Part shown: piece after piece, positions 6,901-29,739 of the stretch
Layout: each line of letters starts with the position of its first letter
How positions within the stretch are numbered: the first letter of the stretch is position 1
Program-made: the position numbers and the translations under genes
The notes under the pieces: generated by a model
The model's input: only the letters and a program-made list of their open reading frames with translations
Databases searched by the model: none
Told to the model about the DNA's origin: nothing
Assembly (NCBI GenBank): GCA_902516825.1
Contig: CABXZZ010000010.1
Span: forward strand, 1-33,594
DNA: 33,594 nt
Origin: an uncultured SAR116 cluster alpha proteobacterium
Lineage (GTDB): Bacteria > Pseudomonadota > Alphaproteobacteria > Puniceispirillales > Puniceispirillaceae
Reading direction: 5' to 3'

Positions 6901-7512
6901 ATGACAGATACACTTTCCGTGTTAAAGGATAAGTATAATGTTTCACATGAAACATTATCCGAGCTCTCAACCTTTCACGATCTTTTATTTCACTGGCAAA
7001 AACGCCTAAACCTCATCTCTACTAAAACAATAAATGAAATTTGGGATAGGCATATTCTTGACAGCGCTCAACTCTGTAGTTTTCTTCCCAAAAATCCATG
7101 TTGCATTCTTGATATCGGCTCTGGTGCTGGGCTCCCTGGTATTGTTCTATCCATTCTAACCGATCATGAGATACATCTAGTAGAATCAGACAAAAAAAAG
7201 TGTGCGTTTCTTAGAACTGCTTTATCACGAGTTAATTCAAATGCCTTGGTTCATGAAACGAGGCTAGAAGAGATGCCTAGTTTGAGGGCCGATATAGTAA
7301 CAGCACGTGCGTTTGCGCCTCTACCACGCCTACTTGCTTTAACGCAAAAGCAGCATCATCCGAAACTACGATTTTTACTTCTGAAAGGAAGGGCTGTAAG
7401 TTCTGAGTTGATTAATATAGAATCATGGCAGAAAATACGGGTAACGAATCGGTATGCATCTATGACATCTGAAGATGGTTGCATCCTAGAATTACAATTT
7501 AACGACGCATGA
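6901..7512 (+). CDS. rsmG: 16S rRNA (guanine(527)-N7)-methyltransferase RsmG
   Basis: Methylates G527 of 16S rRNA (formerly GidB). The SAM-binding loop ILDIGSGAGLPG lies near residues 69-80, preceded by the RHILDS motif region (WDRHILDSAQL), and followed by ESDKKKCAFLR. The 203-residue length is typical. It starts 16 bases after mnmG and ends 12 bases before parA. Residues 13-18, NVSHET, are encoded by a parS-like site; alphaproteobacterial RsmG proteins commonly carry NVSRET at this place because the partition site is embedded in the gene. Confidence 0.96.
   Translation: MTDTLSVLKDKYNVSHETLSELSTFHDLLFHWQKRLNLISTKTINEIWDRHILDSAQLCSFLPKNPCCILDIGSGAGLPGIVLSILTDHEIHLVESDKKKCAFLRTALSRVNSNALVHETRLEEMPSLRADIVTARAFAPLPRLLALTQKQHHPKLRFLLLKGRAVSSELINIESWQKIRVTNRYASMTSEDGCILELQFNDA
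6939..6954. promoter_or_regulatory. parS: parS-like ParB-binding site inside rsmG
   Basis: TGTTTCACATGAAACA differs from the canonical TGTTTCACGTGAAACA at one central base. It lies in the first codons of rsmG, about 570 bases upstream of parA, which is the classical position. An identical 15-mer occurs in ogt at 3247. The shared variant base suggests that it is the form used by this lineage rather than a decayed site. Confidence 0.8.
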
Positions 7513-18031: not shown

Positions 18032-18835
18032 TTATAAATACCCTAACTTTTTCATTATTTTGCTGTTATTTTTTTCTATTGTCTTAAAGGATTTACTTGG
18101 TATTTTTTTCCATTGCGACCTAGTGCCTACCCTGAAAAATTTTGAATGACTTGACGCCTCCCTAAACCCAGTGTTTTTTTCTAATTTGGATAAATTTTCA
18201 AAATTAGTAAGATACAAAATATCAGATATCGCAATAACGGGATTGATTTTTAAAAATTCTAATATGGAGGAAATATTTTCATATGGTTTTGCTATTAAAT
18301 CTTCATACTTTAAAAAGTAAACTGGAATTTGTGCATTCTTCCAACCAGTTACGTGATTCTTCCATGAGGATGTGAATTCACCCCGTTTCCTATCCTCTGG
18401 CTGTAAATTGATAAGATTCTCATCATTAAGTTTGTCAGTCGCTACTTTGATTGAGTGATTGAAATGTTTGGAATAAGAGACTGCTACATCCCTAGGGTCT
18501 CTTACAATATAGATTGCATTCGCAGAAAATTCGGAGTTTGGAAAAACACCAACATCATATTTCCCAGCGGCGTTATGGGTTTTTAGTATACAACTTTTAC
18601 CTTGAGAAATTGCAGTTTCAGATATACGTTTTTGTGTTTCAAGCCATTTATATCTAATTTCCATCGGGTCTTTAAATGCATTTCCAAGCATGTCACTAGC
18701 TAAAGTAGCGAAATTAGGAATAAATTTTCCCATGCCATTTATGTCAAGTTTTCCTAATATCGCGCTATACAGAATAGTCCTTATCCATGTGTTGCCGCTT
18801 TTTGGATAACTTGCAATCCAAGTAATGTTTTTCAT
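18032..18835 (-). CDS. Sulfotransferase domain protein
   Basis: A 267-residue PAPS-dependent sulfotransferase of the Sulfotransfer_1 type. The 5'-phosphosulfate loop YPKSGNTW is at residues 10-17, and the 3'-phosphate motif region IYIVRDPRDVAVSYSKHF is near 107-124. A C-terminal RVGTRSQWKK matches the second PAPS-contact region. There is no signal peptide or membrane segment, so it should act in the cytoplasm. The acceptor is unknown; bacterial relatives modify exopolysaccharide, lipids or small metabolites. No sugar or polymer genes surround it, and the stretch is more AT-rich by eye than the neighbouring housekeeping genes, so it may be a lineage-specific or transferred gene. Confidence 0.9.
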   Translation of the reverse strand: MKNITWIASYPKSGNTWIRTILYSAILGKLDINGMGKFIPNFATLASDMLGNAFKDPMEIRYKWLETQKRISETAISQGKSCILKTHNAAGKYDVGVFPNSEFSANAIYIVRDPRDVAVSYSKHFNHSIKVATDKLNDENLINLQPEDRKRGEFTSSWKNHVTGWKNAQIPVYFLKYEDLIAKPYENISSILEFLKINPVIAISDILYLTNFENLSKLEKNTGFREASSHSKFFRVGTRSQWKKIPSKSFKTIEKNNSKIMKKLGYL

Positions 18836-19265
18836 TTTAAAAAAACCTGTTTAATGTATTTAGAATGGAAATTTTTCCCCCCTGAAATTGTATCTGCTGA
18901 ATCCATTCGCCTTATTTTTAAATATCTTTTTCAGAACAATCTCCATTTAAGAATCCAATTTGCCATAAAAAAAGTATAGCGCAAAGGGTGTCCAAATTTT
19001 CAGAGATATTAAAAAAAAACTTTAAAGACTATTTTTTAAAGTGTAGTTTTTGTCCTCTTGTTGTTCTGATTATTTTTAAATTGAGTTTTATCTTGTTTGT
19101 TGGTTTCAACCGATTCTTTAGTTCAGACACTGGTGACAACACCCACATCCCTATTTATTAGAGAATAAAGCAGTTTTTTGGGCAGTTTGAAGGATATGAC
19201 TTAAGAGTTGTCAGATAGGTTTATGTTTTATATGAAAGATTGTTGAAATCACTTGAGGACAAAAA
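18836..19265. other. 430-base gene-free AT-rich stretch
   Basis: No reading frame with protein-like composition, tRNA or family RNA was recognised here. It should hold the sulfotransferase promoter (minus strand) and the leader of the NTF2-like gene (plus strand). The only clear structure is the hairpin at 19011-19042. Homopolymer runs of A and T are frequent. Confidence 0.6.
19011..19042 (-). terminator. Terminator-like hairpin, minus strand
   Basis: On the minus strand, ACTTTAAA and TTTAAAGT form an 8-base-pair stem with an 8-base loop, followed directly by a run of at least eight T. The stem is AT-rich, which makes it weak by itself, but the T-tract is well placed. It would stop transcripts coming from tRNA-Gln/ispE before they enter the sulfotransferase gene. 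Confidence 0.42.
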
Positions 19266-19626
19266 ATGAGCCTTTTTTGAAAAATATACAAAAGCGTGGA
19301 ATGAAAAAGATGTTTCAGCCTTTTTAGAATGTCATCATGATGATTATGAGTTAGTTATCTACTCAACTGGAGAAGTCAAGAAGATGGAGGATATTGACTG
19401 GGATCAAATGAAGGAATGGATGGTTGCTGCGAACGTAGAAAATCATCGCTGTATTTATGAGAATGATGACATAATCGTAGAGCATCAAATTTTAAGTTAT
19501 GGATCAGGTGATAGAGAGGCCCTGATGCTAGTACATCGTTGCAAGGATGGATTGTGGCGAACAGAAACTGGAGCAACTCCGTTATCTACAAAAAGCTGGT
19601 CCCATACTTTTTATGAACACAAATAA
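19266..19626 (+). pseudogene. NTF2-like (SnoaL-fold) protein, frameshifted at its fourth codon
   Basis: A small protein of the NTF2-like superfamily, disrupted by one base. ATG at 19266 has a strong GAGGA ribosome-binding site but reads Met-Ser-Leu-Phe-stop. The stop falls in a run of six T (19273-19278). Dropping one T gives MSLFEKYTKAWNEKDVSAF and then an unbroken 119-residue protein with HHDDYELVIYSTGEV, RCIYENDDIIVEHQ and WRTETGATPLS, an ordinary NTF2-like layout. Without a shift, translation could begin only at ATG 19384, giving 80 residues and losing the first helix. Sequencing error, recent mutation or ribosomal slippage are all possible. Specific function unknown; such domains are enzymes or ligand-binding modules. 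Confidence 0.75.
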
Positions 19627-19656
19627 GATTCACTTGGAGGTATTAGAAGGGGAGAT

Positions 19657-19767
19657 ATGTCTAGAGTAAACGTGAGAAAAAGTAGAAGAACAGCAAAATG
19701 TTATAAAAATGTTGTGAAAAATGCAATCCAATTCGAACAAATAGAATTTGGTGGGTGGCAGGTGTAA
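19657..19767 (+). CDS. Candidate 36-residue basic protein
   Basis: An ATG with an excellent ribosome-binding site (AAGGGGAG, four bases before the start) opens a 36-residue frame ending in TAA. The first half is strongly basic (MSRVNVRKSRRTAKCYKN) and the second half is neutral to acidic, ending FGGWQV. I do not recognise a family. It begins 30 bases after the NTF2-like gene on the same strand and could be co-transcribed with it. It could be a real small protein or a chance frame; the ribosome-binding site is the main evidence. Confidence 0.38.
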   Translation: MSRVNVRKSRRTAKCYKNVVKNAIQFEQIEFGGWQV

Positions 19768-19812
19768 TCAGAAATATCGAAGGAAATAAGGTAATTTAGC
19801 TAATCTGAGTGA

Positions 19813-19887
19813 TGGCTGGGGCGGTAGGATTCGAACCTACGATACACGATACCAAAAACCGATGCCTTACCACTTGGCTACGCCCCA
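19813..19887 (-). tRNA. tRNA-Gln (UUG)
   Basis: Read on the minus strand, a full cloverleaf of 75 bases including an encoded CCA: acceptor TGGGGCG/CGCCCCA, D stem GCC/GGC, anticodon loop TTTTGGT with anticodon TTG, variable GTATC, T stem GTAGG/CCTAC with loop TTCGAAT, and discriminator G. The acceptor starting with U1-A72 is a glutamine identity feature. The anticodon stem is weak: position 27-43 is a U-U mismatch and 30-40 is G-U. It follows ispE by about 73 bases on the same strand. Confidence 0.96.
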
Positions 19888-24407: not shown

Positions 24408-25274
24408 ATGTCAGAGCATAAAACGACAAAAAACCATCTTATTTCGCAACTTTTCTGGCAGACGGAAATTGGAGCGGATGAAGCTATTTCAACTTACCCA
24501 CTTGTGCAAGATAAAATGACCGCCTTAAAACAATATATGGAATTATTAGAAAAATCCGTCCAACCAGATTTATCACTTCCGAAAACCTCACCTTCGCAAG
24601 TTAATGTTTTAGAACAAACTAACAGTTCAGGCGCGAATATTTCTACAGTAGATAGTGAAATATCTGACTCCAAAAAGCCTGGTTCGTTAGAGGCTTTAAC
24701 AACGCTCAATGAATTGAAGATGGCTTTAGAAAAATTTGATGGGTGCAGTCTTAGAAACACTGCAAGTCAGCTTGTTTTTGGTGATGGTAATCCCAACGCA
24801 AAAATCATGATCATCGGCGAGGCTCCTGGAAAAGACGAAGACAAAATGGGAATTCCCTTCGTAGGCCAGGCAGGTCAGCTTTTAGATAAAATGCTCAAAT
24901 CTATTGGCTTGGATAGGCAGCAAATCTACATCACAAATTTTATTCCTTGGCGCCCCCCTGGAAATAGAACGCCCTCTCCCTTGGAAATCAGTCAACTGAG
25001 GCCATTCATGTTAAAACATATCCAATTAAAAAAACCAGATATTATTGTTGCACTAGGAGGTGTTTCTGCGAAGGCTCTTTTAGAAACAGAACTTGGTATT
25101 CTAAAAATAAGAGGTCTCATTTATGAAAAGAAATTCGGCTCGGACAAGTCAATTCCCATTCTACCTACACTTCATCCTGCCTACTTACTACGTGCCCCAG
25201 CTCAAAAAAAATTGGCGTTTTACGACCTAGTCATGTTGAAACGTGCAATTAGTAAAGGTTTGGTTACACATTAA
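24408..25274 (+). CDS. Uracil-DNA glycosylase, family 4-like, without Fe-S cysteines
   Basis: Base-excision repair enzyme that removes uracil from DNA. The catalytic core has [27 protein letters not shown] (motif GEAPG at 137-141), the [15 protein letters not shown] segment, [10 protein letters not shown] and the C-terminal LHPAYLLR. The family-4 enzymes bind a 4Fe-4S cluster by four Cys; this protein has a single Cys in its whole length (residue 113), with Trp/Leu in place of the others, so no cluster can form. Similar cluster-free forms are known in alphaproteobacteria. About 110 N-terminal residues are low in conservation and rich in Ser/Asn. It precedes the transglycosylase gene by 106 bases. 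Confidence 0.9.
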
Positions 25275-25380: not shown

Positions 25381-25617
25381 ATGGTGCTTTTGCAAAGGTT
25401 GATAACCTCTGTTTATTCGAGAAAAATGTTATGCGTATTGTTTAGCTTAATATCATTTTTCATTTTTTTTTCAGAAAATTTACTAGCCGAAGAGTATTAT
25501 GAGCGATCTATAAATCCATCGTTGCCCCAGCCGCTTAAAGATAAAGATGTGAAATTATATCAGCAAATTTTTGCTCTACAAGAAATTGGGGAAATTAAAA
25601 AGCAGATAAGCTGGTAA
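25381..25617 (+). pseudogene. N-terminal part of frameshifted lytic transglycosylase (signal peptide)
   Basis: This 78-residue frame starts with MVLLQRLITSVYSRK and a hydrophobic signal segment (MLCVLFSLISFFIFF) with likely cleavage after NLLA. It then begins the mature family sequence (LKDKDVKLYQQIFALQEIGEIKK) and runs to a TAA at 25615-25617. The sequence then continues, without loss of family similarity, in the frame one base back (KADKLVTQLSNRILVGH...). The two halves would join into one protein if the run of five A at 25597-25601 had six, or if ribosomes slipped back one base at AAA AAG. See the next entry for the catalytic part. Confidence 0.75.
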
Positions 25618-25667
25618 CTCAATTATCGAACAGAATTCTTGTCGGGCACATTCAGTCTCAGAAATAT

Positions 25668-27185
25668 TTGCATCCAAACGCCTGGCGCTCAAGTTATGAT
25701 GAGTTAAGGACATGGCTTTCTGATTATTCTGATCATCCTAACGCAAGTAGAATTAGCTGGCTGGCTAAAAAACGGAAACCAAAATCAGCTAATAACCACA
25801 ACAGCCCTAAAAAAGGATATTTAAATGGGGTTGGCCAGAACAAACCTCAAAGATGGCGCGCATCTATACCAGAGAGTTATACTGGCAGAGTTTCGCCTCG
25901 GCAGACCGCATCTATTGCTTATCAGATAAGACGCTCAAACTTGCGACGAGAGCCTTCCAATGCTAACAAGTTTCTAAGCAATCCAGATAATCTTCGTTTT
26001 TTAACCCCTTCTGAGGAAGCACATCTGAGGGGAGAGATCGCACATGCTTATTTTGTTTATGGGCTAGATGATAAGGCTGTTATGACTGCCCGTCAGGCTA
26101 TTTCCAAATCCCCCAAAACAGCATATATGGGATACTGGGCAGCTGGGCTGTCCTTATACCGTTCGTATCAGTATGGCCTTGCAGGGATTTATTTTAGAAC
26201 ACTTGCTGATATGGAGGATGCACCGAACCAACTTCGCTCTTCTGCTGCATTCTGGGCTTATCGGTTAAGCTTGCGTGAGAGCAAACCAGAAAATGCGATT
26301 AAATTTCTTAATATAGCAAAGAGTTTTCAAGACTGCTTTTACGGAGTGATGGCGTTACAAATTTCTGGACAGAAAATCTTTATAAATTTTCGACAGCCAG
26401 AGGTTACAGATGATTTTGTTCCGTGGCTTTCGGAAACGAGAGGAGGAAGACGCGTTTTAGCATTGTTGCAAATTGGCGATTGGGCCAAGGCAAGCAGGGA
26501 GTTGCGATATTTATATGGACGTGCATCATTAGCGCAAAAAAAAGATATGATGATGTTCACAGTCATACATAACATGCCAGGGTTGGCATTCAGGCTGGCT
26601 GATTTACATTACCAAGATACTGGTGAAGTGTTCAATCTAGCCTTATACCCACAGCTAGAAACGCATATTAATTTCGATATAGATCCGGCAATTATATACG
26701 GGATTATTCGAAAAGAATCTAGCTTCTATCCATCTGCAAGAAGTCGAGCACGTGCATTAGGCCTAATGCAGATAATGCCTGCGACCGCCGCTTTTATCTC
26801 TAAAGATAAGAGTTTCCTAAATGTAAATAGGCATTTATTAAATAATCCTGATATTAACTTAAAATTGGGCCAGAATTACATTCTTCATTTACTGGAAACA
26901 GCATTAGTTGATCAGCATCTATTTAAGTTATTAATAGCCTATAATGCTGGCCCCGGTAATCTAAATAAATGGCTAAAAAAAATAGATCATAGAGAGGATA
27001 GCTTCCTGATGCTTGAGTCTATTCCAGCAAGAGAAACACGAGGGTATGTGAAAAGTGTGACAATGAATATATGGATGTATCGATTGAAAGAGGGCGGTAG
27101 TGCTTCTGATTTGAGAATATTAGTAGCGGGTGAGGGAACCAGCGGTGAAATAAGTTTTCTTAAGGCAAATGTTAGTTCAGATTAG
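25668..27185 (+). CDS. Soluble lytic murein transglycosylase, catalytic part
   Basis: Cleaves the MurNAc-GlcNAc bond of peptidoglycan with formation of 1,6-anhydro-MurNAc, acting in the periplasm. The frame is open from 25599; the first in-frame ATG-like start given here is internal and lacks a signal peptide. A helical-repeat superstructure is followed by the C-terminal SLT domain: YGIIRKESSFYPSARSRA with the catalytic Glu codon at 26715-26717, ALGLMQIMPATAAF, LKLGQNYILHLL and LIAYNAGPGNLNKW. Joined with the preceding fragment the protein would be about 600 residues, the normal Slt size. As written, the catalytic domain would lack export, so it is either inactive, mis-sequenced or made by frameshifting. 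moaB follows after 43 bases. Confidence 0.85.
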   Translation: MHPNAWRSSYDELRTWLSDYSDHPNASRISWLAKKRKPKSANNHNSPKKGYLNGVGQNKPQRWRASIPESYTGRVSPRQTASIAYQIRRSNLRREPSNANKFLSNPDNLRFLTPSEEAHLRGEIAHAYFVYGLDDKAVMTARQAISKSPKTAYMGYWAAGLSLYRSYQYGLAGIYFRTLADMEDAPNQLRSSAAFWAYRLSLRESKPENAIKFLNIAKSFQDCFYGVMALQISGQKIFINFRQPEVTDDFVPWLSETRGGRRVLALLQIGDWAKASRELRYLYGRASLAQKKDMMMFTVIHNMPGLAFRLADLHYQDTGEVFNLALYPQLETHINFDIDPAIIYGIIRKESSFYPSARSRARALGLMQIMPATAAFISKDKSFLNVNRHLLNNPDINLKLGQNYILHLLETALVDQHLFKLLIAYNAGPGNLNKWLKKIDHREDSFLMLESIPARETRGYVKSVTMNIWMYRLKEGGSASDLRILVAGEGTSGEISFLKANVSSD

Positions 27186-27228: not shown

Positions 27229-27774
27229 ATGTCTAAATTGGATTTAAAAAGAGACTTCGTTCCGGTTAGAATAGCTGTGTTAACCATATCTGATACACGA
27301 ACTTTTTCAGATGATAAATCTGGTGATCTGCTTGCCAACAAGATAAGTGAGGCAGGTCATGTTTTGGTTAGGCAAGAAATAACTCAGGATGAGGTGAGTA
27401 AAATCACTCAAAAATTAAAATACAGCATTCAAGACCCAGATACGGATGTTGTTATTTCAACTGGGGGCACGGGCCTTACCGGCAGGGATGTAACACCAGA
27501 AGCGTTTCGAAGCATCTTTGATAAAGAAATTGAGGGGTTCGGAGAGATGTTTCGGTTCTTATCATTCCAGAAGATAGGAACTTCTACTTTACAGAGCAGA
27601 GCTGTTGCTGGTGTTGCGGGCGGAACCTATTTGTTTGCGCTTCCAGGGTCTCCTTCTGCCTGCAGGGATGCATGGGATGATTTGCTGGTTCATCAACTTG
27701 ATTATCGTCATCGACCTTGCAATTTTGTTGAAATTATGCCTCGATTAATTGAGGCTGGCGTCTCAAGCCGTTGA
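27229..27774 (+). CDS. moaB: Molybdenum cofactor biosynthesis protein B
   Basis: MoaB/MogA-type protein that binds molybdopterin; the family member MogA adenylylates it before metal insertion. The 181-residue sequence has VLTISDTRTFSDDKSGD, STGGTGLTGRDVTPEAF and the C-terminal ALPGSPSACRDAWDDLL, all hallmarks of the fold. A clear AAAGAGGAA site precedes the ATG. It is followed by rnhB after nine bases and follows the transglycosylase by 43, so the run is probably one transcript. No other molybdenum gene is present in the window, so the cofactor pathway must be completed elsewhere. Confidence 0.94.
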   Translation: MSKLDLKRDFVPVRIAVLTISDTRTFSDDKSGDLLANKISEAGHVLVRQEITQDEVSKITQKLKYSIQDPDTDVVISTGGTGLTGRDVTPEAFRSIFDKEIEGFGEMFRFLSFQKIGTSTLQSRAVAGVAGGTYLFALPGSPSACRDAWDDLLVHQLDYRHRPCNFVEIMPRLIEAGVSSR

Positions 27775-28671: not shown

Positions 28672-29739
28672 ATGCAAATAGATATTATATTGAATAAAGA
28701 CTGTCTTACTGGTTTAGGTGAGTTGCCTTCTGGCAGCATTGATTTAGTATTTGCGGATCCACCTTATAATTTACAACTCACGAGTAAGCTTACCAGACCA
28801 GATCAGTCTGTTGTTGATGGGGTTAATGATTCTTGGGATCAATTCGATTCATTCAAAGCATATGATCATTTTAGTGAAGCTTGGCTTAAGGAATGTCATC
28901 GTGTCTTAAAACCTAATGGGGCCATTTGGGTCATTGGTAGTTATCACAATATCTTTCGATTAGGAAAAACATTGCAAGATCTAGGATTTTGGATTTTGAA
29001 TGATGTTATCTGGCGAAAAACTAATCCAATGCCCAATTTTCGTGGACGACGTTTTACTAATGCGCATGAAACACTAATATGGGCGGCAAAATCACCAAAG
29101 TCTAAATATCAGTTTAACTATGATTCTATGAAAATGTTAAATGAGGACTTGCAAATGCGCTCTGACTGGACATTACCCATTTGCAACGGTCAGGAGAGGT
29201 TAAAAGATAAAGCTGGCAAGAAAATTCACCCAACGCAGAAGCCTGAGAATCTGCTAACAAGAGTCGTTTTAGCAACTACCAAGCCAGGTGATGTAATACT
29301 AGATCCCTTTTTCGGAACTGGCACAACAGGTGCAGTTGCAAAGCGATTTGGGCGACATTATGTAGGAATAGAACAGGTTAGAACTTTTGTTGAAAATGCT
29401 GAAAAAAGATTATCTGCAATCGAGCAATTAGATCAGAGCATTGTGGATTTAACAGAAAAGCGTGATTTGCCAAGAATACCATTCGGAGCTTTAATTGAGC
29501 GTGGATGGATCAAAGCTGGTGATACTTTGTTTGATGAGAAAAATCTTTATTCAGCAAAAGTTCGTGCCGATGGCTCCATTATCACTATTGATCATAAATC
29601 AGGTTCCATTCATTCTTTAGCGGCTCTATTGCAAGGTTCTGCTAGCTGCAATGGTTGGTCATTTTGGTACCTAGAAGGTAAGACAGGACCAATATCCATT
29701 GATAGTTTAAGAGCTGATCTACGCAAAGAGGCGAATTAG
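28672..29739 (+). CDS. ccrM: Adenine-specific DNA methyltransferase CcrM (GANTC)
   Basis: Cell-cycle regulated beta-class N6-adenine methyltransferase that methylates GANTC. The catalytic motif DPPYNLQL is at residues 29-36 and the SAM motif DPFFGTGTTGAVA at 211-223, an order that defines the class. HPTQKPENLL precedes it. The C-terminal 90 residues (IPFGALIERGWIKAGDTL...GSIHSLAALLQG...NGWSFWYLE) form the extension specific to CcrM of alphaproteobacteria. The length of 355 is typical. There is no cognate restriction enzyme nearby, so it is a solitary methylase with regulatory function. It converges on apt with 32 bases between stops. Confidence 0.96.
   Translation: MQIDIILNKDCLTGLGELPSGSIDLVFADPPYNLQLTSKLTRPDQSVVDGVNDSWDQFDSFKAYDHFSEAWLKECHRVLKPNGAIWVIGSYHNIFRLGKTLQDLGFWILNDVIWRKTNPMPNFRGRRFTNAHETLIWAAKSPKSKYQFNYDSMKMLNEDLQMRSDWTLPICNGQERLKDKAGKKIHPTQKPENLLTRVVLATTKPGDVILDPFFGTGTTGAVAKRFGRHYVGIEQVRTFVENAEKRLSAIEQLDQSIVDLTEKRDLPRIPFGALIERGWIKAGDTLFDEKNLYSAKVRADGSIITIDHKSGSIHSLAALLQGSASCNGWSFWYLEGKTGPISIDSLRADLRKEAN

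Follow-up and report, generated by a model that had tools for sequence, protein, structure and literature searches.

Organization of the locus

The window, the whole stretch of 33,594 nucleotides that was analysed, corresponds to contig C10 of a draft assembly. This genome comprises 1,466,541 bases on 92 contigs and is estimated to be 62% complete with 0 contamination. Between a gene of the uracil-DNA-glycosylase family (24408-25274) and a MoCF-type gene (27229-27774) lies a lytic transglycosylase gene of the Slt70 type, the two parts of which are in different frames of the forward strand. The 5' part is an ORF of 78 codons in frame 1 (25381-25617), which begins with a hydrophobic, signal-peptide-like stretch, as judged by eye, and ends in a premature TAA at 25615-25617. 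The 3' part, which contains the SLT catalytic domain, is in the -1 frame, which runs without interruption from 25599 until the stop codon at 27185. The start-to-stop ORF of this frame, 25668-27185, encodes 505 amino acids. The putative export signal, recognized by eye, and the catalytic part are in separate frames in the window and in one frame in the relatives examined.

The frame changes after about 72 codons at the junction ATT AAA AAG (25594-25602), in which ATT occupies positions 25594-25596 and AAA AAG positions 25597-25602. When the unbroken proteins of the two nearest relatives, G007 and G006, are compared with the window by tblastn, they match frame 1 up to 25602, and the switch is mapped to 25599/25602. 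As read from the sequence, a -1 shift at the junction would join both halves of the transglycosylase, and the predicted product has the length of the relatives' proteins. The original prediction that the halves meet at ATT AAA AAG in different frames, and that a -1 slip there reunites them, is borne out in both respects. Two short elements lie beside the A run: GGGG (25588-25591), five bases 5' of it and within a stretch coding for Ile-Gly-Glu, and a weak GATAA...TTATC hairpin (25605-25627), the arms of which are at 25605-25609 and 25623-25627.

Several other features of the window are recorded here. A tRNA-Gln gene (anticodon TTG; 19813-19887, reverse strand) is the sole Rfam match in the window at the gathering threshold. 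Together with a sulfotransferase-domain gene (18032-18835, reverse strand) it flanks about 1 kb (18836-19812) without an ORF of 90 amino acids, where short ORFs only are found, for example one of 80 amino acids at 19384-19626 on the forward strand. A DNA methylase of the N6/N4 type, whose C terminus carries a RAMA domain, is encoded at 28672-29739 (forward strand); we take it to be reminiscent of the CcrM-type methylases.

Identity of the enzyme

The 505-residue part matches the Pfam SLT domain PF01464 at residues 336-443 with an E value of 5.8e-24 (84.4 bits, the cutoff being 21.3). It also matches PDB entry 5mpq over residues 185-473 (E 3.6e-20) and Slt70 in entry 1qsa (E 5.4e-17); 1qsa and 1sly are presumably the E. 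coli enzyme. The sequence GIIRKESSF of the window protein aligns to GLIRQESRF of 5mpq, and its Glu is assumed to be the catalytic one. With the 505-residue part alone as the query, the NCBIfam model PRK11619 (murein transglycosylase) scores 92.8 bits, so that its curated threshold of 536 bits is not reached. The window gene is an ordinary Slt70-type lytic transglycosylase of a SAR116-like alphaproteobacterium.

The gene and its junction in related genomes

The transglycosylase is matched in 56 of 61 genomes, the window's own included, and every listed match is free of stop codons. The five genomes without a match (G001, G004, G027, G041 and G050) all fall short of 90% completeness. Where completeness reaches 90% and contamination does not exceed 5%, the gene is found in every relative (39 of 39), and the window's own genome has it once. 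The transglycosylase therefore looks like a core gene of which the window's own assembly has no second copy. Database phage records gave no match. Four named loci are found at 74-77% identity among the matches listed (L032, L033, L034 and L037); the titles of three name SAR116-cluster alphaproteobacteria and that of the fourth an Alphaproteobacteria bacterium, and the window's organism is on this basis probably SAR116-like.

The state of the frame was surveyed in the 30 best loci of the genome list and in the top 80 of 553 candidates. Matches at E 1e-20 or better were obtained for 122 of 124 loci. After 17 loci in which the alignment started after query residue 30 had been left out, the remaining 105 represented 88 distinct sequences. 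The frame was called unbroken when no stop codon occurred in the 60 codons that precede residue 1 of the 505-residue ORF, the junction being 23 codons upstream of that residue. One open frame runs across the junction in 87 of the 88 distinct loci among the matches listed, and the window copy alone is broken; a frame break at the junction is shared by none of the other 87.

Seven congeners (G002, G003 and G005-G009) carry one base more than the window at the junction, and AAA AAG is in frame there in none of them. The alignment of related genomes, which had been proposed earlier as a check, thus finds an unbroken frame and no slippery pair in the nearest relatives, and this speaks against a programmed mechanism. 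Within 16 codons around the junction, in-frame AAA AAG is present in one of the 87 other distinct loci among the matches listed. This locus, L017, is from another genus of the same family (53% identity) and has the pair at the same codons. As its frame is unbroken, AAA AAG can simply be read there as plain Lys-Lys coding.

The nearest congeners, G006 and G007 (88% amino-acid and 85% DNA identity), have the same run of five As as the window and an additional base just before the run. Because their A run is equal and one base precedes it, the loss of a single base at the run's 5' edge would be the simplest account of the window sequence. Contraction of the homopolymer is possible, but it is not the simplest account. 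The earlier statement that one extra A restores the protein holds insofar as one base is missing, and an extra A is no longer the preferred way to restore it. The other five congeners and L017 differ in the junction codons; since the more distant relatives diverge here, the base that was lost cannot be fixed exactly, and it is missing at or beside the five-A run.

Selective constraint

The catalytic part has a dN/dS of 0.109 against G007 and 0.111 against G006. The 37 codons before the break give 0.126 and 0.151, respectively. For comparison, the neighbouring methylase and MoCF-type genes have values of 0.106 and 0.073 against G007. Between G006 and G007 the same 37 codons give 0.51 at a dS of 0.045, with too few sites for this value to be read. 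Both halves were under normal purifying constraint until recently, with no sign of decay, and the low dN/dS in both of them fits an error as well as a loss that is very recent.

Signals for frameshifting

According to PMC4066793, a -1 frameshift signal requires a tetramer of the form Z_ZZN or a heptamer of the form X_XXZ_ZZN. In the window, A_AAG stands in frame as the tetramer, but the heptamer T_AAA_AAG does not fit X_XXZ_ZZN. The pair AAA AAG is also found in frame nine times in the 8945 codons of the 25 other ORFs of the window. At the site and after it, the best nested RNA fold is no better than those of dinucleotide shuffles (z 0.30 and 1.02). GGGG and the GATAA/TTATC stem are both present, as had been noted, but neither carries the meaning of a signal: GGGG occurs in G006 and G007 too, where the gene is intact, and the 38-base hairpin stretch has a folding energy of -2.8 kcal/mol in the window compared with -7.2 in G006 and -6.2 in G007. 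The hairpin is not an adaptation to frameshifting, because it is stronger in these two unbroken genes. As signals, AAA AAG, GGGG and the hairpin amount to no more than chance or inheritance.

Reliability of the assembly

ORFs of at least 90 amino acids from G007 were compared with the window and parts of three further contigs of its own genome (C57, C51 and C33). L125, which had a match of 57 bases only, did not enter this comparison, nor did L127, L128, L142 and L144. Those with at least 60% identity over at least 90 amino acids were kept, giving 83 ORFs, some of which are antisense or in alternative frames. About 64.3 kb were compared, and matched ORFs cover 55.6 kb of this. The transglycosylase is the only within-gene frame break in the 55.6 kb covered. 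It is one of three ORFs flagged for matching in more than one frame. The case on C51 is no frame break, since the difference is located 5' of the probable start codon, and the case on C33 is a weak match elsewhere on the contig (47% over 36 amino acids). Five short matches were likewise dismissed after alignment, three being at contig ends and two being C-terminal differences. An alternative-frame ORF of G006 inside the uracil-DNA-glycosylase gene matches in two pieces, the gene itself in one. The sampled assembly is not generally ridden with indels, and an error at the transglycosylase would therefore have to be a lone one; this weakens the error reading and does not remove it.

Two features of the compared contigs are mentioned in their own right. 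The 1127-codon ORF of L143 (contig C7 of G007) has at its 3' end tandem 15-base units that encode APSLE/APSLK repeats. These units are absent near position 7092 of the window's own contig C33 (L153), an in-frame length difference. On its own contig C51, L146 has at 918-940 an inverted repeat, ACAGAGGGTA...TACCCTCTGT, which is common to G007 and lies some 80 bases before the probable gene start; it may be the terminator of the preceding gene.

Origin of the frame break

The observations above can be combined into an account in which the assembled transglycosylase gene would lack one base at or beside the five-A run through an error in the draft consensus, whether of a metagenome bin or of an amplified single cell. 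The living cells would then carry an unbroken gene, and no recoding mechanism would be involved. We put the probability that an error of consensus or assembly explains the break at roughly 0.6. This account is supported by the restriction of the break to one of the 88 distinct loci among the matches listed, by the presence of the gene in all 39 good relatives and as a single copy in the window's own assembly, by the low dN/dS of both halves, and by the state of the draft, which is 62% complete and in 92 contigs. In a survey that took in 1106 complete prokaryotic genomes, a homology-validated singleton frame break is expected to reflect a sequencing error and not a genuine indel, and clustering across genomes serves as a main sign of programmed cases (PMC3711429); its genomes are complete ones of 2013 and earlier, unlike the present draft. 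The original judgement that a simple error is the likeliest cause is probably right, as unbroken relatives and a singleton break suggest. That the base was lost in the consensus rather than by mutation is nevertheless something we infer; a genuine deletion of recent date would leave the same sequence.

Such a deletion, of one base in the strain or the cell, would have left a young pseudogene whose product is a 78-residue stub. Only a single lineage is affected, as would be expected, and the lack of any other within-gene break in the sampled assembly makes the error rate look low. Indels are also common beside A runs. On the other hand, the presence of the gene in all 39 good relatives argues against its loss, as does the low dN/dS of both halves, although a very recent loss would show no decay. 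A real deletion is a tentative possibility that deserves to be kept in mind, at odds longer than even. If the base is truly lost in the living population, slippage at A_AAG might be compensatory and keep a freshly broken core enzyme at a low dose. This is very improbable, but its chance is not zero, because there are known cases in which frameshifting compensates for problem indels, one such site being A_AAG (PMC5009743).

A -1 ribosomal frameshift at A_AAG, whether programmed or tolerated, would yield the full exported enzyme and gate its amount. Slipping on AAG would produce a protein as long as those of the relatives, and in E. coli, given the IS3 pseudoknot downstream, A_AAG shifts most readily of the Z_ZZN tetramers, active tetramers ranging from 0.26% to 5.6% (PMC4066793). 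In the same study, however, Z_ZZN motifs that are not followed by a pseudoknot average 0.147%, compared with 0.112% where there is no motif. The other 87 distinct loci among the matches listed all lack the split, AAA AAG occurs in none of the seven congeners and, unbroken, in L017 alone of the 87, and neither a fitting heptamer nor a nested stimulator is present. The earlier alternative of programmed frameshifting is rejected on these grounds, with only a few chances in a hundred left to it.

Two further explanations fare even worse. The catalytic half might start on its own, at TTG 25668, TTG 25941 or ATG 26082, and work without a signal peptide. Start codons do exist at these places in the -1 frame, but the first ATG is about 160 codons into the frame, and the codons that precede TTG 25668 align without gaps to the relatives' proteins in tblastn. 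A division into two proteins is seen in none of the other 87 distinct loci among the matches listed, and it is more doubtful than ribosomal frameshifting. Transcriptional slippage on the A run, which would shift the frame in part of the mRNA, could be suggested by the five-A run at the break. Five As are short for slippage of RNA polymerase, however, and the intact genes of G006 and G007 have the same run, making this the least probable explanation considered.

Annotators should mark the frame of this gene as broken in the draft, and without reads it should be counted neither as a gene loss nor as a case of recoding. The break matters little beyond annotation. Rescue of a core murein enzyme by slippage, if it took place, would make this a case of natural compensatory frameshifting in a marine bacterium, but there is little to suggest it.

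Comparison with known systems

The window protein resembles the Slt70-type soluble lytic murein transglycosylases, such as E. coli Slt70 and 5mpq, in its SLT domain and in the ES(S/R)F, GLMQ(I/V)MPATA and YNAGPG stretches. It differs in that its gene is broken by one missing base, whereas the relatives examined are unbroken. With programmed -1 frameshifting of the dnaX or IS type, which uses A_AAA_AAG, or A_AAG with stimulators, the window shares the in-frame A_AAG. It departs from that type in having no X_XXZ_ZZN heptamer, no nested fold that beats shuffles and no conserved split. No notable difference is apparent from the singleton frame-broken genes of the GeneTack survey (PMC3711429), and the likeness to them is that a homology-validated break is present in one genome only.
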